Source: Microbacterium testaceum
GTDB lineage: Bacteria > Actinomycetota > Actinomycetes > Actinomycetales > Microbacteriaceae
Reading direction: 5' to 3'
Length of the DNA: 64,000 bases
Assembly (NCBI RefSeq): GCF_006539145.1
Contig: NZ_BJML01000001.1
Span: 372,001-436,000 of the forward strand
Positions within the stretch are counted from its first letter, which is position 1. Every line of letters begins with the position of its first letter. The position numbers were made by a program, and so were the translations under genes. Under the pieces are notes generated by a model, which was not told the DNA's origin, did no database searches, and was given only the letters and a program-made list of their open reading frames with translations. Below are positions 54,020-62,690 of the stretch, piece by piece.

Positions 54020-54895
54020 GTGTCGAGCAGCGTCACTGCACCCTCAGAGCCCGCGTCCCCGATGTCGCCGGAGCGACTCGCGCGCGAGAACCTGCCCCTG
54101 GCGAAATACCTCGCGGTCGAGAAGGCGCGCAGTGCCCAGCACGTCGACCTCGACGACCTGCTGTCGGCGGCCTATCTGGGCCTGGCGACCGCGTCGATGG
54201 AGTACGAGCCCGAACGCGGCATCCCCTTCGGCGCCTACGCGCGCACCAAGATCACCTGGGCCATCCTGAACGAGATGCGCTCCGCCGATCCCGCGGGTGA
54301 GCGCAGTCGCGAGAAGATCGAGCGCGTCCGCGTCGCCGACGAGATCGTGCGCGCGCGCACCGGCCGCGCGGCGAGCGTCCCCGAGCTGGCGGCGGAATCG
54401 GGACTCGACGCGGACGTCGTGGTGAAGATGCAGGTGCTCGACGAGATGGTCCGCACCGGAACGAGCTTCGAAGTGCAGTTCGAGGGCGATGACTCCCGTC
54501 AGCCGGTCGACCTCACCGACAGCGTGATCCTCCCCGAGCACGCCGTCGAGCAGGCCGAGAAGCAGCGCATGCTCGATCGCATCATCGGAGCGCTGCCCGA
54601 TCAGATGCGTCGCGTCATCCGCGGCGTGTACCTCGACGAACGCATGGTGAAAGACGTCGCGGCCGATCTCGAGGTGAGCCACGCCTATGTGTCCAAGCTC
54701 CGCCGTGTCGGCCTGACGCTCATGCGCGAGGCCCTCGACGCGTGGGAGAACGGCACGGTCCCCGACCGATCGACCGCCACGAAGGCCGCCTTCTTCGACG
54801 GCGTCTTCGGCCCCGTCGCCGTGCCGTCGGGCCGCGGAGCGAGAGATGCGGTGTCTTCGAGCGTCGACCTGACGGGACTGGCCCTCCCCGCCTGA
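54020..54895 (+). CDS. fliA: Flagellar-type sigma-70 factor (FliA/WhiG group)
   Basis: A 291-residue sigma factor with region 2 (NLPLAKYLAVEKARSAQHVDLDDLLSAAYLGLATASMEYEP, FGAYARTKITWAILNEMR), region 3 and region 4 (MVKDVAADLEVSHAYVSKLRRVGLTLMREAL). It heads the flagellar genes, ahead of flagellin. The GTG at 54020 has CAGGAG upstream. It probably reads the shared promoter motif before fliC, flgB and fliH, whose CGATA core matches the FliA/WhiG -10. Its own upstream region lacks that motif, so another factor controls it. A Ser/Gly-rich C-terminal tail extends past region 4. Confidence 0.85.
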   Translation: MSSSVTAPSEPASPMSPERLARENLPLAKYLAVEKARSAQHVDLDDLLSAAYLGLATASMEYEPERGIPFGAYARTKITWAILNEMRSADPAGERSREKIERVRVADEIVRARTGRAASVPELAAESGLDADVVVKMQVLDEMVRTGTSFEVQFEGDDSRQPVDLTDSVILPEHAVEQAEKQRMLDRIIGALPDQMRRVIRGVYLDERMVKDVAADLEVSHAYVSKLRRVGLTLMREALDAWENGTVPDRSTATKAAFFDGVFGPVAVPSGRGARDAVSSSVDLTGLALPA

Positions 54896-54920
54896 GCGCA
54901 GAAGTTTCCTCGGGCGGGTC

Positions 54921-54951
54921 GGTTACACCTCGGCGGATCCGTCGCGATGGT
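54921..54951 (+). promoter_or_regulatory. Flagellar-class promoter of fliC
   Basis: GGTTAC (54921-54926), 14 nt, then GTCGCGATGGT (54941-54951). The same spacing and sequence precede flgB and fliH. Confidence 0.7.
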
Positions 54952-54958
54952 GGGGGAT

Positions 54959-55001
54959 GCGGGGCCACGGACGGCGCCGCATCAAACCCCATCCACGGAG
55001 G
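54959..55001 (+). promoter_or_regulatory. fliC leader with two ACGGA sites, one in a hairpin loop and one on the ribosome binding site
   Basis: 54959-54966 (GCGGGGCC) pairs with 54973-54980 (GGCGCCGC, one G-G mismatch), exposing the loop ACGGAC. A second ACGGA (54995-54999) overlaps the ribosome binding site GGAGG (54997-55001). This is the two-site layout of CsrA control of flagellin in Bacillus; inferred here. Confidence 0.6.
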
Positions 55002-55007
55002 AACAAC

Positions 55008-55835
55008 ATGGGTCTTCAGATCGCAACCAACGTCGGTGCCCTCAACGCGTACCGCAACCTGTCGGCGAACCAGAACGACGTGTCGAAGTCGCTCGAGAAG
55101 CTCTCGAGCGGTCAGCGCATCAACCGCGCGGCCGACGACGCCGCCGGCCTCGCCATCTCCGAGGGTCTGCGCTCGCAGGTCAACGGCCTGAACGTGGCCG
55201 CGCGCAACGCCCAGGACGGCATCTCGGTCATCCAGACCGCGGAAGGCGCCCTGACCCAGGTCCACTCGATCCTGCAGCGCGTGCGCGACCTCGCGGTGCA
55301 GGCGGGTAACGACTCCAACAACCCCGCGTCGCGCGACGCGATCAAGACGGAGATCGACACTCTCGGCGAGGAGCTGACACGCGTCGCCGCGAGCACCAAC
55401 TTCAACGGCATCAAGCTGCTGAACGGCGAGAACGCCTCGCTGACCTTCCAGGTCGGCGCCGGTGCCGTCGCCGCCGAGGACCAGATCTCGGTCACGCTCA
55501 CGGACTTCAGCACGCTGGGCGCGACCATCGGTGCGCTGACCGTCGACTCGGCGACCAACGCGGCGACGTCCATCGCGGCCATCGACACCCAGATCTCGAA
55601 CGTGTCGACCGCGCGTGCCGGTATCGGTGCCGCGCAGAACCGCTTCGAGTCGACCATCAACTCGCTGCAGGTCTCGGCCGAGAACCTCTCCGCCGCCAAG
55701 AGCCGCATCGTCGACACCGACATGGCGGCCCAGATGGTCAAGTACACGGCCTCGAACATCCTCGCTCAGGCGGGAACCGCGATGCTCGCCCAGGCCAACC
55801 AGTCGGGCCAGGGCGTCCTGCAGCTCCTGCGCTGA
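55008..55835 (+). CDS. fliC: Flagellin
   Basis: A 275-residue short flagellin: N-terminal D0/D1 (IATNVGALNAYRNLSANQNDVSKSLEKLSSG, ADDAAGLAISEGLRSQ) and C-terminal D1/D0 (SRIVDTDMAAQMVKYTASNILAQAGTAMLAQANQSGQGVLQLLR) are complete, while the variable middle is only about 60-70 residues, so D2/D3 are essentially absent. It has its own promoter, a structured leader and a strong terminator. Confidence 0.96.
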   Translation: MGLQIATNVGALNAYRNLSANQNDVSKSLEKLSSGQRINRAADDAAGLAISEGLRSQVNGLNVAARNAQDGISVIQTAEGALTQVHSILQRVRDLAVQAGNDSNNPASRDAIKTEIDTLGEELTRVAASTNFNGIKLLNGENASLTFQVGAGAVAAEDQISVTLTDFSTLGATIGALTVDSATNAATSIAAIDTQISNVSTARAGIGAAQNRFESTINSLQVSAENLSAAKSRIVDTDMAAQMVKYTASNILAQAGTAMLAQANQSGQGVLQLLR

Positions 55836-55855
55836 TCCGCAGCACTGACGCGCCG

Positions 55856-55895
55856 ACGACGCCCGGGCGGGGGATTGCTCCCGCTCGGGCGTCGT
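55856..55895 (+). terminator. fliC terminator
   Basis: ACGACGCCCGGGCGGG pairs with CCCGCTCGGGCGTCGT (one G-U) around a short loop, 20 nt past the flagellin stop. Confidence 0.8.
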
Positions 55896-55935
55896 TCGCC
55901 CCGGGTTCGCTTCACCGACGGAAGGCGGAGACACG

Positions 55936-57300
55936 ATGAACATCGACGGCCTGGCATCCGGTATCAAGACAAAAGATGTCATCGACGCGCTCATGAACGT
56001 CGCGGCGATCCCCAAGACTCTGGTCAAGAACAAGATCACCGATCACACGACGATCATCACCAACCTCCAGTCGCTCAACACCTCGCTGCAGAGCCTCGAC
56101 GACAAGGCGAAGACCGCGGCGACCGCCACCTCGCTCGCGCGCTTCTCGGCGGCGAGCTCCTCGGAGACCGTGACCGTCACCGCGGGGGAGAAGGCGCGGG
56201 CGTTCTCGACCGCCGTCGTGGTCGACACCCTCGCCGTCGCGCACACCATCGTGACCGCACCCGGAGGGGCGGATGCATTCGCGGGTCCGTTCACCCTGGT
56301 CGCCCGAGACGGCACGGTCACCGAGATCGCCCCGGCCGGTGCCGCGCCGAGCGACCTCGTCGCCGCGCTCAACGCCGCCGGTGCGGGCGTCATCGCCACG
56401 GTCGTGCCGGGCGGGCGGGGCGCCGACGGTCAGCCCCTCTCGCGCGTGCAGATCTCCGCGACGCAGACGGGCGCGGACGCCTCCTTCGTCCTGCACCGCG
56501 GCAGCGCCGCCGACGTCGCCGCGGGAACCGGTACCGACGTGGCGAGCCAGGCGGGTGCGGCGATCGTCGGACGGGGAACGGATGCCGTGATCCGCCTGTT
56601 CGCGGGAACGACCGCCGAGCAGACGGTCACCAGCTCCTCCAACACCTTCGTCGGAATCGGCGAGGGCATCGACGTCACGGTGCGCGCCACGTCGACGCAG
56701 CCGATCACGATCACCGTCGCTGCCGACGGCAAGGCGCAATCCGACACCGCGGCGGCCTTCGTGAAGGAGATCGCCGCCCTGATGACGCGTATCGACAACG
56801 GCTCGAAGGCCACGGTCGCCGCACCGGGCTCGGCGACCACTCTCGGAGTGTTCACCGGCGACAGCACGGTGCGTTCTCTCCGCGGCGCGCTCTCCGGTGC
56901 CGTCCAGGATCCGATCGAGGGTGTCTCGCCGTCGACGATCGGCATCAGCGTCGACAAGTACGGCGCGCTGTCGTTCGACCAGGAGAAGTTCGCCGCCGCG
57001 ATGCAGGCCGATCCGGTCGCCACGCAAGCGACGTTCTCGGCCGTCGCGGAACGCGTCCACGCGACCACCGCGCGCTACTCCGACAAGTACGACGGCCTGC
57101 TAACCCAGCGCATCGCGGGCCAGCAGAAAGAGGTCACGTCGCTGCAGCAGCAGGTGGAACGCATGGACCTGCGCCTCGACATGCGTCGAGCCACGCTCGA
57201 ACGCACCTACTCCGCGATGGAAGTGCGGCTGTCGGGGCTGCAGTCGCAGTCGTCGTGGCTCACTTCTCAGCTGGCCGCCCTCACCCCGCCGTCGCAGTAA
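55936..57300 (+). CDS. fliD: Flagellar filament cap protein FliD
   Basis: A 454-residue hook-associated protein 2. The N-terminal FliD_N (IDGLASGIKTKDVIDALMNVAAIPKTLVKNKI) and C-terminal FliD_C (SPSTIGISVDKYGALSFDQEKFAAAM, then coiled coil ERTYSAMEVRLSGLQSQSSWLTSQL) are clear. AAGGCGGAG precedes the ATG, and an ACGGA lies at 55918-55922 directly before it. It is followed by fliS after 21 bp. Confidence 0.94.
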   Translation: MNIDGLASGIKTKDVIDALMNVAAIPKTLVKNKITDHTTIITNLQSLNTSLQSLDDKAKTAATATSLARFSAASSSETVTVTAGEKARAFSTAVVVDTLAVAHTIVTAPGGADAFAGPFTLVARDGTVTEIAPAGAAPSDLVAALNAAGAGVIATVVPGGRGADGQPLSRVQISATQTGADASFVLHRGSAADVAAGTGTDVASQAGAAIVGRGTDAVIRLFAGTTAEQTVTSSSNTFVGIGEGIDVTVRATSTQPITITVAADGKAQSDTAAAFVKEIAALMTRIDNGSKATVAAPGSATTLGVFTGDSTVRSLRGALSGAVQDPIEGVSPSTIGISVDKYGALSFDQEKFAAAMQADPVATQATFSAVAERVHATTARYSDKYDGLLTQRIAGQQKEVTSLQQQVERMDLRLDMRRATLERTYSAMEVRLSGLQSQSSWLTSQLAALTPPSQ

Positions 57301-57321
57301 CCGCGAACAGGAGACAGATCG

Positions 57322-57708
57322 ATGCCCGTCACCACCCTCGCCCGCGCCCAGCAGGAATACCTCGAGCAGCAGGTGTCGTCCGCCACCCCCGAGCGGCTCG
57401 TCACGATGCTCTACGACCGGCTGCTCGTCGACGTCGAGCGCGCACGCGTCGCGCAGCAGAACGGCGACTGGCCGTCGGCGGGCACCTACCTCACGCACGC
57501 GCAGGCGATCATCGCGGAGCTGAGCGGTTCGCTCGACAGCGGCTGGGAGGGCTCGGACGGGTTGCGGGGGCTCTACACCTACATCACGGGCCGCCTCATC
57601 GTCGCCAACGTCGGTCGCGACGTGGCGGCTACGGAGGAGTGCGGAACCCTCATCGCGCCGCTCCGCGAGGCCTGGCACGCCGCCGCGGCCGCGCTCACCG
57701 TCTCGTGA
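57322..57708 (+). CDS. fliS: Flagellin export chaperone FliS
   Basis: A 128-residue helical chaperone that keeps flagellin unpolymerised before export. The start QQEYLEQQVSSATPERLVTMLYDRLLVDVERA is typical. CAGGAG precedes the ATG. The next small gene begins 8 nt after its stop. Confidence 0.93.
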   Translation: MPVTTLARAQQEYLEQQVSSATPERLVTMLYDRLLVDVERARVAQQNGDWPSAGTYLTHAQAIIAELSGSLDSGWEGSDGLRGLYTYITGRLIVANVGRDVAATEECGTLIAPLREAWHAAAAALTVS

Positions 57709-57715
57709 CGCAACG

Positions 57716-57988
57716 ATGACCGACGACACGGCGTGGGCCGCCCTCCTGGACGCCTTCGAGCGCGCCCTCGACGCGGGGGACGAGGTCGATCCCGGGGCGT
57801 TCGAGCGACCTGCCGGACCGCCGCCGCAGCACCTCGTCACCCGCGCGCGGGACGTGCTCGAGAGGCAGCTCCGCGCGATCGAGGAGCTCGGCGTCGCCCG
57901 TGCCGAGCTCGCGCGCGAGATCGCGGCCCTACGGCGGATCCCGCCTACCCGGGTGAGCGCACCCGTCTACCTCGATGTGCGCGGATAA
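57716..57988 (+). CDS. Small helical protein in the FliT position
   Basis: A 90-residue, acidic-to-basic helical protein (WAALLDAFERALDAGDEVDPGAFERP, then RARDVLERQLRAIEELGVARAELAREIAALRR). It lies directly after fliS, where FliT-like chaperones for FliD are found in other bacteria. The sequence is too diverged to assign by eye, so FliT is a contextual guess. It is the last gene before the flgB promoter. Confidence 0.72.
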   Translation: MTDDTAWAALLDAFERALDAGDEVDPGAFERPAGPPPQHLVTRARDVLERQLRAIEELGVARAELAREIAALRRIPPTRVSAPVYLDVRG

Positions 57989-58051
57989 CCGGAACCCCCC
58001 GCGCGTGCCGTGATCGCTCCGGGCCGGCATCCGTCTGCGCACCCCCTGCGC

Positions 58052-58082
58052 GGTTACGTCCGAGCGCCCCTGTCGCGATAGT
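58052..58082 (+). promoter_or_regulatory. Flagellar-class promoter of the flgB operon
   Basis: GGTTAC (58052-58057), 14 nt, then GTCGCGATAGT (58072-58082). Same layout as before fliC and fliH. Confidence 0.7.
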
Positions 58083-58089
58083 CGGTACC

Positions 58090-58126
58090 GAGCACGGATC
58101 GCTCAACGACTGGCCACGGATCGGCT
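58090..58126 (+). promoter_or_regulatory. Twin ACGGATC hairpins in the flgB leader
   Basis: GAGC-ACGGATC-GCTC (58090-58104) and GGCC-ACGGATC-GGCT (58112-58126) present identical 7-nt loops 22 bp apart, beginning close to the predicted transcription start. Nearly the same text lies before fliH. Confidence 0.6.
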
Positions 58127-58148
58127 CGCCCCACGACCGGAGTGCCGC

Positions 58149-58496
58149 GTGCTCGAATCCGTCACCTCAACAGCCCTGTCCAGCGCCCTCGACGCGTTGT
58201 CGATCCGACAGCGCGCGATCGCCGAGAACATCTCGAACGTCAACACGCCCGGCTATCACGCCAAACGCGTGTCGTTCGAGAAGGAGCTCACGACCGCCGT
58301 CGAACGGGGGTCCGGGAGCGTCGAAGCGGTCGTCCAGCGCTCGCTCGAGCCCACGCGGCTCAACGGCAACAACGTCAACCTCGACACCGAGACGATGTCG
58401 AACATCGACACGGTGCTGCGCTATCAGTTCGCCGCCCAGGCCCTCAGCGGGCAGGCCTCCTCCATCACCAAGGCGATCGGGCAGGCCTCCGCATGA
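58149..58496 (+). CDS. flgB: Flagellar proximal rod protein FlgB
   Basis: 115 residues. LDALSIRQRAIAENISNVNTPGYHAKRVSFE is the rod-protein N-terminal signature, and the C-terminus (DTETMSNIDTVLRYQFAAQALSGQ) is the usual FlgB end. The GTG at 58149 has GGAG 6 nt upstream. It overlaps flgC by 4 bp. Confidence 0.93.
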   Translation: MLESVTSTALSSALDALSIRQRAIAENISNVNTPGYHAKRVSFEKELTTAVERGSGSVEAVVQRSLEPTRLNGNNVNLDTETMSNIDTVLRYQFAAQALSGQASSITKAIGQASA

Positions 58497-58885
58497 GTTT
58501 CGACGCGATCGGCATCGCGGGAACCGGGTTGTCGGCTCACCGCAAGTGGTTGGACGCCATCAGCGACAACATCGCCAACGTCAACACCGCCACCCCCGCG
58601 GGCCAGGACATGTTCCGCGAGAAGTACGTCACGGTGGCCGAGGGGGCCGAGACCCCCGGCGTCTACGTCACGGGTGTGCGCGAGTCGACGGCGGAGGGAC
58701 GTCTGGTCTACGAGCCGGAGCACCCGTACGCCGACGAGAACGGCTACGTGCAGTACCCCAACGTCGACCTCGGCGATCAGATGAGCATGCTGATCCTCGC
58801 TCAGCGCGGCTATCAGGCCAACGCCGCCGTCATCGACCGCGCCAAGACGAGCTACGAAGCGGCCCTGCAGATCGGACGAAGCTGA
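58493..58885 (+). CDS. flgC: Flagellar proximal rod protein FlgC
   Basis: 130 residues with FDAIGIAGTGLSAHRKWLDAISDNIANVNTA at the N-terminus and PNVDLGDQMSMLILAQRGYQANAAVIDRAKTSYEAALQIGRS at the C-terminus, as in FlgC. It overlaps flgB by 4 bp (ATGA) and fliE by one base (TGATG). Confidence 0.94.
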   Translation: MSFDAIGIAGTGLSAHRKWLDAISDNIANVNTATPAGQDMFREKYVTVAEGAETPGVYVTGVRESTAEGRLVYEPEHPYADENGYVQYPNVDLGDQMSMLILAQRGYQANAAVIDRAKTSYEAALQIGRS

Positions 58886-59211
58886 TGAGCATCCCCATCG
58901 ACCCCGTCGCGGCCGCGGGCGTGACGCCCCTGAATCCCCTGAGCTTCGAGCAGACCACCGCGGCACCCCGGATCGGGGGTGCCGCGAGCGGACAGTCGTT
59001 CGCCGGTTCGCTCGCCGCCGCCGTCGAGAACCTGCAGCAGCTGCAGTCGACCTCGAACGGCCTCGCCGTGCAGGCCGTCACCGGAGACCTCGACGACATC
59101 CACAAGGCCACGCTCGCCTCGACGCGCGCCGGGGTCACGCTCGACCTGATGGTCGCCGTGCGCGATCGCGGTGTCGCCGCATTCAACGACGTCATGCGGA
59201 TGCAGGCCTAG
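58885..59211 (+). CDS. fliE: Flagellar hook-basal body adaptor FliE
   Basis: 108 residues joining the MS ring to the rod. The conserved part is the C-terminal half (SFAGSLAAAVENLQQLQ, VTGDLDDIHKATLASTRAGVTLDLMVAVRDRGVAAFNDVMRMQA). Coupled to flgC by TGATG; fliF starts 3 nt after. Confidence 0.92.
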   Translation: MSIPIDPVAAAGVTPLNPLSFEQTTAAPRIGGAASGQSFAGSLAAAVENLQQLQSTSNGLAVQAVTGDLDDIHKATLASTRAGVTLDLMVAVRDRGVAAFNDVMRMQA

Positions 59212-59213
59212 CC

Positions 59214-60848
59214 GTGCCCCGCGTTTTCGCGTCTTCGCTCGAGCGTCTCAAACGGATCGTCGCCGGCTTCAGCGTCGCCCAGCGAACGATCGCCGTGATC
59301 GGCGCCGCCCTTGTCGTGATGGGCATCATCGCGCTCGGCAGCTGGCTGGCGAAACCGCAGATGAGCCCGCTGTTCACGGGTCTGAGCCCGAGCGACGCCT
59401 CAGCCGTCGTGGAGCAGCTCAAGTCGGCGGGGGTGGGCTATGAGCTCACCGAGGGTGGAGCGACGGTCCTCGTGCCCGATGCGCAGGTCTACCCGCAGCG
59501 TCTGGCTGCCGCGGCAGCGGGCCTGCCCACCAACGACACCGGGGGGTACACGCTCCTCGACAAGATGGGCGTGACCGCGAGCGAGTTCCAGCAGTCGGTG
59601 ACATACAAACGCGCCATCGAGGGCGAGCTGGCGGCGACCATCGGGGCGATGTCGGGGGTCACCGCGGCATCCGTGCAGTTGGCCATCCCCGAGCAAAGCG
59701 TCTTCGTGGCCGATAAGCAGCACCCCACGGCATCCGTCTTCGTCAAGACCCAGGGCGGTGCGAGCCTCAGCGACGATCAGATCGCCGCGATCGTGCATCT
59801 GACCAGCGCCTCGATCCCCGGAATGACCCCCGAAGACGTCGCGGTGACCGACCAATCGGGGCGGGTGCTCGCGGCGGTGGGGCAGGGGCTCACCGGTTCC
59901 GCGAGTACGCAAGCCTCGGAGCACGAGGCGAAGGTCGCCGGGGCGGTGACGAAGATGCTCGAGACCATCGTCGGCCCGGGCAACTCCACCGTCAGCGTCA
60001 GTGCCGACGTGGCCACCTCGACCTCCGAACGCATGGACGAGACGTACACCGCCCCCGAGGGCGGCGTGATGACCAACGAGCAGACCCGCACCCAGACCTC
60101 CAGCGGCGGTCAGGCGGGGGGAACGGGCGTGCTGGGACCCGACAACATCGCCGTGCCGAACACCGGGGGAGCGGGGTCGTTCGAATCCGAGGAGTCGACG
60201 CGCAACAACGCCGTCAACAAAACGACCGAGAAGACGACGACCCCGGCCGGCGACGTCACCCGGCAGACCGTCAGCATCGCCCTCGACCGCGGGTCGGTGC
60301 AGGGGGTCACGGCCGAACAGGTGCAGGCGCTGGTCACCAACGCGGCGGGCATCGACACGGCCCGCGGCGACACGGTCACGGTCGAGTTCGTCGACTTCAG
60401 CCAGAGCGCGGCTGCCACGGCCGCCGCGGCGCTCGAGGCGGCCGAGGCCGAGAAGGCAGCTCAGGCGCAGTCCGAGCTCGCGCGCGCGGCCATCATCGGC
60501 GGTTCGATCGTGCTCGCGGCCCTCATCCTCGTGATCGCGCTGCTGGTCCGTCGCCGCATGAAGCGACGCACGCTCTACACCGAGGACGGACCGATCGAGT
60601 ACTTCGCGACGATGACCGAGACCGAGGAGCAGAAGCTCAAGACCCTCAAGGGGCTGGCCGAGCCCATCGCGTTGCCCGCGGTGCCGCCGACCAAGGTCAT
60701 TCCCACCCTGCTCGATATCGAGGAGGAGCCGGAGTCGCCGCAGGTTCTCGTCGAGCAACGTCGGCGCGAGGTGGAGCAGCTCGCCAAGAGCGACCCGCAG
60801 AACGCGGCGAAGGCTCTCGCCCACCTCATGGACGAGGCAATGGCATGA
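59214..60848 (+). CDS. fliF: Flagellar MS-ring protein FliF
   Basis: A 544-residue basal-body ring protein. The N-terminal membrane helix lies near residues 22-45, followed by the YscJ/FliF domain (LFTGLSPSDASAVVEQLKSAGVGYELTEGG...) and a periplasmic C-terminal domain. A second membrane helix lies near 421-443 (AAIIGGSIVLAALILVIALLV). The cytoplasmic tail (DEAMA end) should bind FliG. GTG start, 4-bp overlap with fliG. Confidence 0.95.
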   Translation: MPRVFASSLERLKRIVAGFSVAQRTIAVIGAALVVMGIIALGSWLAKPQMSPLFTGLSPSDASAVVEQLKSAGVGYELTEGGATVLVPDAQVYPQRLAAAAAGLPTNDTGGYTLLDKMGVTASEFQQSVTYKRAIEGELAATIGAMSGVTAASVQLAIPEQSVFVADKQHPTASVFVKTQGGASLSDDQIAAIVHLTSASIPGMTPEDVAVTDQSGRVLAAVGQGLTGSASTQASEHEAKVAGAVTKMLETIVGPGNSTVSVSADVATSTSERMDETYTAPEGGVMTNEQTRTQTSSGGQAGGTGVLGPDNIAVPNTGGAGSFESEESTRNNAVNKTTEKTTTPAGDVTRQTVSIALDRGSVQGVTAEQVQALVTNAAGIDTARGDTVTVEFVDFSQSAAATAAAALEAAEAEKAAQAQSELARAAIIGGSIVLAALILVIALLVRRRMKRRTLYTEDGPIEYFATMTETEEQKLKTLKGLAEPIALPAVPPTKVIPTLLDIEEEPESPQVLVEQRRREVEQLAKSDPQNAAKALAHLMDEAMA

Positions 60849-61924
60849 GCCTGGTGAACACCCCGACGACGGATGCCGAGCACGCCCCCGCCACCGCTGT
60901 GACCGAGGTGCTCGCCGCGCCGGCGGTCACGATGTCGGGTCTGCGCAAGGCCGCGATCGTCATGCTCAACATGGACCGCGAGACCAGCGCCGAGGTGCTG
61001 CGTCATCTCGGCGAGGAACGCGCCGAGCTCCTGGCCGGAGAACTCGCTCAGCTCGGCAGCATCGACACCGCCGCCACCGCGGCAGCGCTCGCCGACTTCC
61101 GTCGTATCGCCTCGGGCCGTTCGCTCCTGAGCCGCGGCGGAGAGCAGTTCGCGACCGGACTGCTCGAGACGGCGTTCGGGCGCGAGAAGGCCGTGGGCAT
61201 GGTGGGGCGTGTGATGTCGCAGGGCGTGGTCTCGTTCGACTTCCTCAACGCGGCGGACCCGACCCAGCTGGCCACGATCCTCGACGGCGAGATGCCGACC
61301 ACCGTCGCCGTCGTGCTCGCGAACCTCCGCGCGGACCGCGCCGCCGCGGTCCTCGCCGCGCTTCAGGATCCGCTGCGCACCGACGTCGCGCAGGCGATCG
61401 CCGAGCTCGGGGTCGCCTCGCAGGAGGCGATCACCGTGGTCGCGGAGTCGCTGCGCGCGCGGACGGGGGTGTTCGGCACGCGTGAGGCGCACGAGGCCAT
61501 CGGTGGTGTGCAGCCGCTGGTCGACATCATCAACCGGTCCGACACCGCCCTCGAGAAAGCGCTGTTGGCCGGTTTGGACGACCGCGACCGGGTGCTCGCC
61601 GAAGAGGTCCGCAGCCGGATGCTGACCTTCGCCGACATCTCGCGGCTCGAGGACCGCGACGCCCAGCGCGTGCTGCGGGGGATCGACCTGCGCGTGCTCG
61701 CCCTCGCGCTCAAGGGCGCCGACGAGCAGATCGGCGACGTGATCCGCCGCAACATGACCGAGCGCAACCGAGAGAACCTCGACGAGGAGACGCGGGCGCT
61801 CGGACCCGTGCGCATGCGGCAGGTCGACGAGGCTCGTGCCGAGGTCGTGCGTGTCATCCGCGAGCTCGAAGCCGCCGAGGAGATCACGCTCGCACGCGAG
61901 GACGACGACGAACTGATCGAGTGA
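60845..61924 (+). CDS. fliG: Flagellar motor switch protein FliG
   Basis: A 359-residue rotor protein with N-terminal (SGLRKAAIVMLNMDRETSAEVLRHLGEE), middle and C-terminal domains. The C-terminal charged helix that faces the stator reads DQIGDVIRRNMTERNRENLDEETRALGPVRMRQVDEAR. It ends in an unusually acidic tail (EDDDELIE). Confidence 0.95.
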   Translation: MSLVNTPTTDAEHAPATAVTEVLAAPAVTMSGLRKAAIVMLNMDRETSAEVLRHLGEERAELLAGELAQLGSIDTAATAAALADFRRIASGRSLLSRGGEQFATGLLETAFGREKAVGMVGRVMSQGVVSFDFLNAADPTQLATILDGEMPTTVAVVLANLRADRAAAVLAALQDPLRTDVAQAIAELGVASQEAITVVAESLRARTGVFGTREAHEAIGGVQPLVDIINRSDTALEKALLAGLDDRDRVLAEEVRSRMLTFADISRLEDRDAQRVLRGIDLRVLALALKGADEQIGDVIRRNMTERNRENLDEETRALGPVRMRQVDEARAEVVRVIRELEAAEEITLAREDDDELIE

Positions 61925-61932
61925 TCGCGATG

Positions 61933-61958
61933 CCGACCGCCCTCCCGGATGCGGTCGG
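61933..61958 (+). promoter_or_regulatory. Hairpin overlapping the fliH promoter -35
   Basis: CCGACCGC (61933-61940) pairs with GCGGTCGG (61951-61958) around 10 nt. Its right arm overlaps the GGTTAC element (61957-61962). It may end fliG transcripts or tune read-through into fliH. Confidence 0.5.
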
Positions 61959-61987
61959 TTACGGCGGGCAGCGCCCGTCGCGATAGT
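61957..61987 (+). promoter_or_regulatory. Flagellar-class promoter of fliH-fliI
   Basis: GGTTAC (61957-61962), 14 nt, then GTCGCGATAGT (61977-61987), identical in layout to the flgB promoter. Confidence 0.7.
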
Positions 61988-61994
61988 CGGGGAA

Positions 61995-62032
61995 GAGCAC
62001 GGATCGCTCGTCGACTTGGCCACGGATCGGCT
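61995..62032 (+). promoter_or_regulatory. Twin ACGGATC hairpins in the fliH leader
   Basis: GAGC-ACGGATC-GCTC (61995-62009) and GGCC-ACGGATC-GGCT (62018-62032), a near copy of the flgB leader with two single-base insertions relative to it. Confidence 0.6.
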
Positions 62033-62057
62033 TCGCCACAACCGCAGGGTGACCACC

Positions 62058-62690
62058 GTGTCCGATTCCGTCTTCACTCCGCTGGTTCTGCCGCGCGTGG
62101 GCGAGGCGCAACCGGACGTTCGGGCTGTCGCCGACAGAGCGCGGGCGCGGGGATACGCCGACGGGTTCGCCGAGGGGCGCCGCGACGCCCGGGTCGAGCT
62201 CGAGAGCGAGCGTCTCGCGGCCGAGCGGCGCGTCGCCGCCCGCGACGCCGCAGCCGACGCGGCCCATCGAGCGGCCCTCTCGGCTCTCGGCGAAGCGAGG
62301 GCCCGGCTCGACGCCGAGATCGCCGCTCTCGTGGCATCCGACGTGCGACGTCTCGAGGAGCTCGCGATCGAGATGGCCGCCGAGATCTTGCGGACGGAGA
62401 TGTCGGATGCCGCCCGCTCGGCCGCTCACGCGATGCGGCGGGCCGCCGCTCAGACGCCCCGCGCGGCATGGGTGCGGGTGCACCTGAACGAACGCGACCT
62501 GCGCACGCTCCACGATGCGGCCGCCGCGGAACTCGCGGAGGGCGTGGAGGTCGTGGCGGACGCCGACGTGGATCCCGGCGGCGCGATCGTCCGGATCGTG
62601 CACGGCAGCGTGGACACGCGGATCGGTGCGGCGCTCGAGCGGGCGCGCGCGGAACTCGCTCTGGACGACGACGGCGAGGCCGGCTCGTGA
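62058..62690 (+). CDS. fliH: Flagellar export regulator FliH
   Basis: About 210 residues. FliH inhibits the FliI ATPase and carries it to the export gate. The N-terminal region is followed by a long helix rich in Ala, Arg and Glu (YADGFAEGRRDARVELESERLAAERR), with a FliH/V-ATPase E-subunit-like C-terminal domain. The GTG at 62058 is chosen for the AGGGTG before it; GTG 62049 is in frame. Overlaps fliI by 4 bp. Confidence 0.88.
   Translation: MSDSVFTPLVLPRVGEAQPDVRAVADRARARGYADGFAEGRRDARVELESERLAAERRVAARDAAADAAHRAALSALGEARARLDAEIAALVASDVRRLEELAIEMAAEILRTEMSDAARSAAHAMRRAAAQTPRAAWVRVHLNERDLRTLHDAAAAELAEGVEVVADADVDPGGAIVRIVHGSVDTRIGAALERARAELALDDDGEAGS

Follow-up and report, generated by a model that had tools for sequence, protein, structure and literature searches.

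The window analyzed here, a stretch of 64,000 nucleotides (nt) on contig 1 of the 3.59-Mb genome of Microbacterium testaceum, contains the start of a flagellar gene cluster in the order sigma factor gene, fliC, fliD, fliS-like, flgB, flgC, fliE, fliF, fliG, fliH, and fliI, and the leaders of fliC, flgB, and fliH carry hairpins with the sequence ANGGA in their loops. All the features described lie on the forward strand. The identities of fliC (55008 to 55835; Pfam Flagellin_N and Flagellin_C), of flgB (58149 to 58496; Pfam Flg_bb_rod), which heads the flgB-flgC-fliE-fliF-fliG row, and of fliH (62058 to 62690; Pfam FliH, E value of 5.7e-10; the start is the second GTG, another in-frame GTG lying at 62049) come from Pfam, while fliD, fliS-like, flgC, fliE, fliF, fliG, and fliI are names that we assigned presumptively. 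Past the end of the window (locus L003), FliP and FlgN were identified by Pfam, and flhA, csrA, and fliW are also present. Most of what is known of CsrA targets comes from Proteobacteria and Bacillus; for this actinobacterial DNA, a first-pass annotation had proposed that flagellin and two structural operons are jointly controlled by CsrA or another RNA-binding protein.

In the fliC leader, a hairpin with an 8-pair stem, including one G.G mismatch (54959 to 54980), presents the loop ACGGAC (54967 to 54972), and a second ANGGA, within ACGGAGG (54995 to 55001), falls on the ribosome binding site serving the ATG at 55008, so that both elements described in the first-pass annotation can be read directly in the sequence. 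The leader folds better than its shuffled versions (z score of -3.74 in minimum-energy folding). We examined 58 fliC leaders, i.e., 27 from relatives' loci, that of the window, and 30 from genome loci (11 of the 38 relatives' loci, having no script-called fliC start, are not among them), and in 57 of the 58, the exception being L173, an ANGGA site occurs 28 to 75 nt 5' of the start. In an alignment (A3) of 25 sequences, 21 of them distinct, five of the eight stem pairs vary on both sides, and the covariation score is 0.342, compared with 0.127 (standard deviation, 0.023) for shuffles, which ignore relatedness, and at most 0.112 for slid controls, which keep it. Furthermore, across 49 distinct leaders all 200 shuffles are surpassed in double changes at stem places 2 to 7, but not at place 8; pair 1 is uninformative in this analysis, since a C..G closing pair was favored in choosing the sites. 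The second base of the loop is C in 39 of these leaders, T in 8, and A in 2, and it is the loop and the complementarity, not the sequence of the stem, that the fliC hairpins retain. Because of loop shifts, L024, L025, and L041 were excluded from alignment A2. The second ANGGA falls within the last 24 nt of the leader in 28 of 28 cases in one set and in 27 of 30 in another, which by itself is weak evidence, because the canonical AAGGAGG ribosome site contains ANGGA. A model of the fliC leader (R2) found a single match in its own genome, namely, fliC, with the next at 15 bits. Thus, three features of a hag-type flagellin leader are found here: csrA and fliW in the genome, a conserved and covarying ANGGA hairpin, and an ANGGA on the ribosome site.

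The leaders of flgB and fliH each carry two hairpins sharing one loop, as the first-pass annotation had described: H1, GAGC-ACGGATC-GCTC, at 58090 to 58104 and 61995 to 62009, respectively, and H2, GGCC-ACGGATC-GGCT, at 58112 to 58126 and 62018 to 62032. The two hairpins are 22 to 23 nt apart, H1 lies 8 nt past the promoter element CGATAG, and the ribosome sites of both genes are without ANGGA. A third copy of the arrangement, with H2 as GGCT-ACGGATC-GGCC, is located outside the window in the fliP leader, where a further ACGGAG occurs inside GCAC-GGA-GTGC at the ribosome site; at least three twin-hairpin operons, and not two, are therefore to be considered. The paired arrangement is well beyond chance: when the whole genome was searched with a covariance model of the twin pair (R1), three strong matches were obtained (58.7, 57.1, and 55.0 bits, with the next at 20.4), which are the leaders of flgB, fliH, and fliP, and as for a wider regulon, R1 and R2 together yielded in this genome the three twin leaders and fliC and nothing further strong. 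ACGGA is depleted in the window (116 occurrences on both strands versus 199 expected), and single ANGGA hairpins on its forward strand number 27, where 30 simulated sequences average 24.6; being at chance level, one such hairpin proves nothing, and the counts were not used as evidence. The paired pattern, in the window plus 46 loci (47 sequences), was found 57 times in the forward direction and never in reverse, 8 times in the window and own-genome loci and 49 times in the relatives' loci, 33 of the 38 having at least one. A few of these pairs are not of the flgB type: those of L037 and L038 belong to fliC, that of L044 is a coding match, and some are second pairs at fliP. With seven other loop cores, the same sequences gave between 0 and 19 forward occurrences and between 0 and 14 reverse ones. 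A search of positions 54800 to 62200 with Rfam returned three matches up to an E value of 5, all far under the gathering scores.

The distribution of the twin element was followed in 38 loci around FlgC taken from relatives and in 30 further loci from flagellated genomes of the class, 36 of which had FlgC. A script scanning for GGA-loop hairpin pairs 18 to 30 nt apart detected a pair in the flgB leader of 27 of the 30 genome loci, 22 of them at a score of at least 7.5. Of 1500 control windows drawn from these loci away from the leaders, 1.6% contained a pair of whatever score and 0 had a score of 7.5, and when the 30 flgB leaders were scanned on the opposite strand, no pair was found. In an earlier control, run over the relatives' whole loci with leaders included, 3.0% of 1520 windows reached 7.5, and the 38 relatives plus the window, a set that shaped the scoring, gave 35 of 39 at that score. 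The spacing between the two GGA is 21 to 24 nt in 58 of the 63 leaders holding a pair (full range, 19 to 25 nt), so that all 63 carry two GGA sites within the 10 to 63 nt over which a CsrA dimer can bridge (PMC7652899). Consistent with the suggestion that the first hairpin starts at about the expected transcription start, H1 begins 9 or 10 nt past the -10 element (C/G)CGAT in 47 of the 52 leaders, out of 63, in which this element was recognized. Compared with the H1-H2 spacing, the distance to the start codon is more variable: H2 ends 21 to 37 nt before the start in 35 of 41 distinct leaders and up to 62 nt before it in others (L042 was left out of the sets used for this distance, for the loops, and for the final covariation test).

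As regards the sequence of the element, among 50 distinct copies most loops (45 of H1 and 48 of H2) keep an A and GGA with C, G, A, or T in between, the others being mostly AGGA, and the stems are mostly conserved in sequence. In the first alignment (A1; 42 sequences, 41 distinct), 97.9% of the cells pair; at the outermost position of the H2 stem, 25 sequences have G-C, 10 have G-U, and 4 have A-U, and 2 are unpaired. In the wider class sample, three positions pair more often and show more double changes than any of 500 shuffles, i.e., H1 pair 4 (G-C 49, A-U 4, unpaired 1), H1 pair 5, and H2 pair 4 (G-C 31, G-U 7, C-G 6, A-U 3, unpaired 5), and slid controls pair less often than these three; none of them was required for selection. 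The scan that yielded this sample favored longer stems. H1 pair 6 and H2 pairs 5 and 6 are not beyond the shuffles. The compensatory changes with constant loops that the first-pass annotation had asked for were thus obtained strongly for fliC and, for the twin element, in the wider sample and not convincingly in the first alignment.

Within the genus, R1 detected the element at an E value of 1e-4 or less in 29 of 119 genomes. In 24 of the 27 loci that were read it precedes flgB, and in the other three (L193, L194, and L198) it precedes a gene that is fliP-like by likeness and position. Three copies occur in 11 of the 29 genomes, our own included, and in 10 of these 11 they lie on one contig, with copies 3.9 kb and 13.2 to 14.7 kb from the flgB copy, matching fliH and fliP; in the remaining genome (G401), one copy is on another contig. 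A second copy was also found in L032, of the Microbacteriaceae. This distribution points to flgB as the widespread target and to the fliH and fliP copies as a narrower expansion. In the flgB leaders of family f21 (L127, L129, L130, L135, and L142), an extra ACGGAG lies on the ribosome site. Among distant lineages, the script gave a weak score for L042 (6.8) and none for L043, L045, and L046, which were not counted as members. By way of side observation, L043 (Acidimicrobiaceae) has near FlgC, at the expected place (L043:6058-6094), the hairpin GAGC-ATGGATA-GCTC followed by a weaker second one, a site whose 21.2 bits do not stand out from chance matches in that search (20.4 for one on the other strand of L024); moreover, the flgB leaders of L024 and L025 show one extra base before GGA in the loop of H2 (ATCGGAC) next to a canonical H1.

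The csrA gene that the first-pass annotation had left to be searched for is present in the genome (C1:448739; 85 amino acids; PF02599 E value of 9.8e-23 in the genome search and 2.7e-23 in a second Pfam search), and its product matches solved CsrA/RsmE structures. It lies in the flagellar cluster, 93 nt behind flhA and downstream of the fliP leader, as does fliW (C1:451911; E value of 2.4e-18). In 30 csrA loci (our own and 29 others, out of 42 csrA matches), residues L4, R6, R44, E46, and N55 are invariant, and H43 is found in 25; L4, R6, and R44 are presumably RNA contacts. N55 is reported to be needed for FliW binding in Campylobacter jejuni and, by citation, in Bacillus subtilis (PMC7829508). 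In a sample of 296 genomes of the class, csrA was detected in 41 and flhA in 37, csrA being found in 37 of 37 flhA-positive and in 4 of 259 flhA-negative genomes; in this sample, therefore, every flagellated genome has csrA, and few others do. FliW, sought in the csrA-positive genomes, occurs in 38 of the 41, including all 37 with flhA. The four genomes with csrA and without flhA are G008, which has FliW, and G090, G220, and G281, which do not and may hold a nonflagellar CsrA, the matches in G090 and G281 being weaker. In our genome and in the genus relative L096, the ribosome site of csrA is enclosed in a GCC-ACGGAA-GGC hairpin (L001:1477-1488); together with the position of the gene downstream of the fliP leader, this suggests that csrA could feed back on its own expression. 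In L098 and L099, which belong to another family, the csrA leaders show a hairpin-like GGCGC-ACGGAA-G(T/A)GCC and AGGGAAGG at the ribosome site, features that suggest csrA autoregulation there too.

On these grounds, we consider that the hairpins of the fliC, flgB, fliH, and fliP leaders are candidate CsrA sites of a flagellar CsrA-FliW regulon, with a probability of about 0.8; the joint control proposed by the first-pass annotation is thus supported by sequence. Given the leader hairpins and the co-occurrence of CsrA and FliW in the flagellated relatives, CsrA very likely controls flagellum building. A number of observations, gathered here, weigh against this reading. The flgB, fliH, and fliP leaders, folded alone, are no stabler than shuffles (z scores of -0.54, 1.01, and 1.33), and the predicted probability of the twin hairpins is low (medians of 0.07 and 0.04 in 51 leaders). 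In alignment A1, the covariation score of 0.093 barely tops the 0.087 of the slid control, with 0.065 for shuffles, three of the four H1 pairs are invariant, and the sole change, from A-U to G-C, occurs in one sequence (Timonella); in the wider sample, H2 pair 5 pairs less than shuffles. The arms of the twin hairpins are more conserved in sequence than CsrA should need, and 3 of the 30 flgB leaders have no pair found by the script (in L115, a more widely spaced pair is visible by eye; in L116 and L117, there is none). No flagellated genome without csrA occurs among the 296, so that dependence on csrA is inseparable from being flagellated. Finally, R1, which was built mainly from Micrococcales, misses at E values below 1e-5 26 of the 37 flhA-positive genomes, and between 1e-5 and 1e-4 it matches, besides three csrA-positive genomes (G048, G284, and G132), three csrA-negative ones (G111, G168, and G125), whose matched loci show no flagellar leader. 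The 11 genomes matched below 1e-5, our own included, all have csrA and flhA, and the hairpin scan recovers the twin element in most of the examined genomes that R1 misses; at E values up to 0.1, R1 matches 199 of the 296 genomes, which we take to be mostly noise in GC-rich DNA.

The strong conservation of the GAGC and GCC arms in primary sequence, the fixed place of the element behind the -10, and repeats about two helical turns apart could also be accounted for by a DNA operator, in which CACGGATCG direct repeats some 22 base pairs apart past the promoter would be the target of a transcription factor and the hairpins would be incidental. We regard this as improbable: in most elements the A and the GGA are fixed and the base between them is free, the spacing drifts over 19 to 25 nt, two-sided changes at H1 pairs 4 and 5 and at H2 pair 4 exceed those of shuffles, and the fliC hairpins conserve loop and complementarity instead of stem sequence. 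The same excess of arm conservation over the apparent needs of CsrA could speak for a different RNA-binding protein, or a ribonuclease, as the reader of the hairpins, a reading to which we give little credence, considering that the fliC hexaloop C-ANGGAN-G fits the CsrA selection consensus quoted in PMC7652899 and that all 37 genomes with flhA have csrA and FliW as well.

If CsrA is the reader, joint control need not have the same sign throughout, because the twin hairpins of flgB and fliH leave the ribosome site uncovered. At fliC, free CsrA would bind the hairpin and reach across to the second ANGGA, at the ribosome site, thereby blocking flagellin synthesis as in Bacillus hag, and once flagellin is exported, FliW would remove CsrA and relieve fliC. 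At flgB, fliH, and fliP, one CsrA dimer would bridge H1 and H2 at the very 5' end of the mRNA, with mRNA protection or unmasking of the start codon as possible outcomes. Activation of this kind appears to be the likeliest effect on the twin leaders, if with little more than an even chance, because the hairpins are clear of the ribosome site and their spacing is nearly constant, while the distance to the start is more variable. It is possible, with a lower but still appreciable probability, that within the same CsrA regulon the twin leaders are repressed, the dimer on H1 and H2 hindering the loading of ribosomes downstream. The usual distance of 21 to 37 nt between H2 and the start is near the edge of an initiating ribosome, and our own fliP leader and the f21 flgB leaders have the further ACGGAG on the ribosome site; moreover, CsrA of C. 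jejuni represses multiple flagellar mRNAs (PMC4894983). On the other side stand the ribosome sites of flgB and fliH in the window, which contain no ANGGA, and the same variability of the distance to the start.

Protein-free folding bears on the choice between activation and repression. In 51 leaders, from which 12 doubtful starts had been excluded, the flgB start codon is predicted to be usually paired (median probability of 0.89), and in the window this predicted pairing is due in part to the H1 arm and the start region; binding of CsrA could consequently switch the expression of the twin leaders on. The mean energy of the duplex between the H1 arm and the start is -12.6 in 63 leaders, some with miscalled starts, versus -11.9 (standard deviation, 0.23) with swapped starts; with corrected starts (41 distinct leaders), the values are -10.8 and -10.3, with 4.8% of the swaps as good and 9.6% as good for the H2 arm used as a control. 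Ranked against coding windows, the start regions are in the best 3.8% (median) in the 51 leaders and 9.7% in the 41, compared with 31% for the H2 arm. For fliH the ranking is mixed: in 14 leaders, the share of windows that do as well as the start runs from 0 to 62%, several starts being called at an upstream GTG and that of L032 looking wrong. In the 41-leader set, changes of the free loop base, inspected by eye, are not generally compensated at the start codon. That the H1 arm pairs with the start codon is kept as a hypothesis only, and since the test of its conservation is weak, activation is rated only somewhat likelier than repression. The csrA and flgN leaders, too, fold no better than shuffles.

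Among known systems, the closest counterpart of the fliC leader is hag of B. subtilis, which likewise has two CsrA sites in the flagellin leader, one of them on the ribosome site (PMC7652899); csrA and fliW are both present here, and the FliW contact N55 is kept. Unlike B. subtilis, M. testaceum belongs to another phylum and carries paired 5'-end hairpins at flgB, fliH, and fliP, and the evidence here is that of sequence. In C. jejuni, the flaA leader has two ANGGA stem-loops with compensatory changes, and CsrA has further flagellar mRNA targets and FliW as its antagonist, but the hierarchy uses RpoN and FliA, and the parts of the report drawn on here describe no multi-operon twin-hairpin element (PMC4894983). 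In Escherichia coli, flhDC also bears two CsrA sites near the 5' end of its mRNA, through which CsrA shields the message of a master regulator from RNase E (PMC7652899), whereas here the sites are predicted ones on structural operons; the 5'-end position of the twin hairpins fits a protection of the flhDC type. The TwoAYGGAY RNA motif, judging by its name, also has two AYGGAY loops, but it was reported from the human gut, gamma-Proteobacteria, and Clostridiales (PMC2864571).

For actinobacteria, CsrA control of flagellin through a BS2-like ribosome site was proposed in 2008 for Kineococcus radiotolerans, where csrA lies in a motility island; that comparison was limited to BS2 and, in the portion considered, did not extend to flgB, fliH, or fliP leaders, and according to the same paper, csrA also neighbors flagellar genes in Nocardioides, A. 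cellulolyticus, and L. xyli (PMC2587704). As of 2015, B. subtilis was described as the only Gram-positive organism studied for CsrA, and it was suggested that Actinobacteria may use FliW (PMC4682653). CsrA and FliW are also among the proteins searched for in PMC10746217, in which, as far as the part used here goes, no targets are named, and Microbacterium csrA has been tied to biofilm by analogy (PMC10384088). In the portions of the open literature covered, we found no report of the twin leaders of flgB, fliH, and fliP. The fliC part of the system is best read as hag-like, and what appears to be new is the twin-hairpin leader on structural operons.

With regard to transcription, the sigma factor gene adjoining fliC (54020 to 54895; Pfam sigma-70 region 2, E value of 4.4e-8; region 4, E value of 2.5e-4, under its cut-off) was taken as FliA-like, and its product is the likely reader of promoters of the type GGTTAC-N-GCGATAGT. 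Matches to this pattern precede flgB (58052 to 58082) and fliH (61957 to 61987), and GGTTACN{16,22}GCGATAGT has four matches in the genome, all in the flagellar cluster (flgB, fliH, fliP, and flgN), and none in the reversed control. The putative fliC promoter is a variant of this type, with the elements GGTTAC and GTCGCGATG (54921 to 54949) in a layout repeated in relatives. Despite sharing the promoter pattern of flgB, fliH, and fliP, the flgN leader has no ANGGA, so that the hook-associated operon seems to be outside the twin-hairpin set; a different GTGGG/CCCAC stem was observed in the flgN-flgK operon leader (L001:1787-1848; genome C1:449025-449086). Separately, a GC-rich inverted repeat lies between fliC and fliD (55844 to 55904), perhaps a terminator or a processing stem, for which Rfam gave only a chance microRNA match.

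It is possible to hypothesize, although we consider it doubtful as a whole, that in actinobacteria CsrA acts as a reciprocal switch that times assembly, keeping flagellin off and the basal-body and export operons on. Before completion of the hook, CsrA would capture H1, whose 5' arm and loop (GAGCACGG) would otherwise pair with the start region, the partner being CCGUGCUC or, in many leaders, CGUGUUC; upon export of flagellin, FliW would take CsrA, and both outputs would flip. Since a single promoter type serves flgB, fliH, fliP, flgN, and, as a variant, fliC, the architecture of the leaders could replace a transcriptional hierarchy, and if the switch is real, opposite signs of control would be set by that architecture alone. 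More generally, a dedicated flagellar CsrA-FliW system would always accompany flagella in one class of the Actinobacteria, with candidate RNA targets named to the nucleotide and a twin leader that may be used for the study of assembly order.

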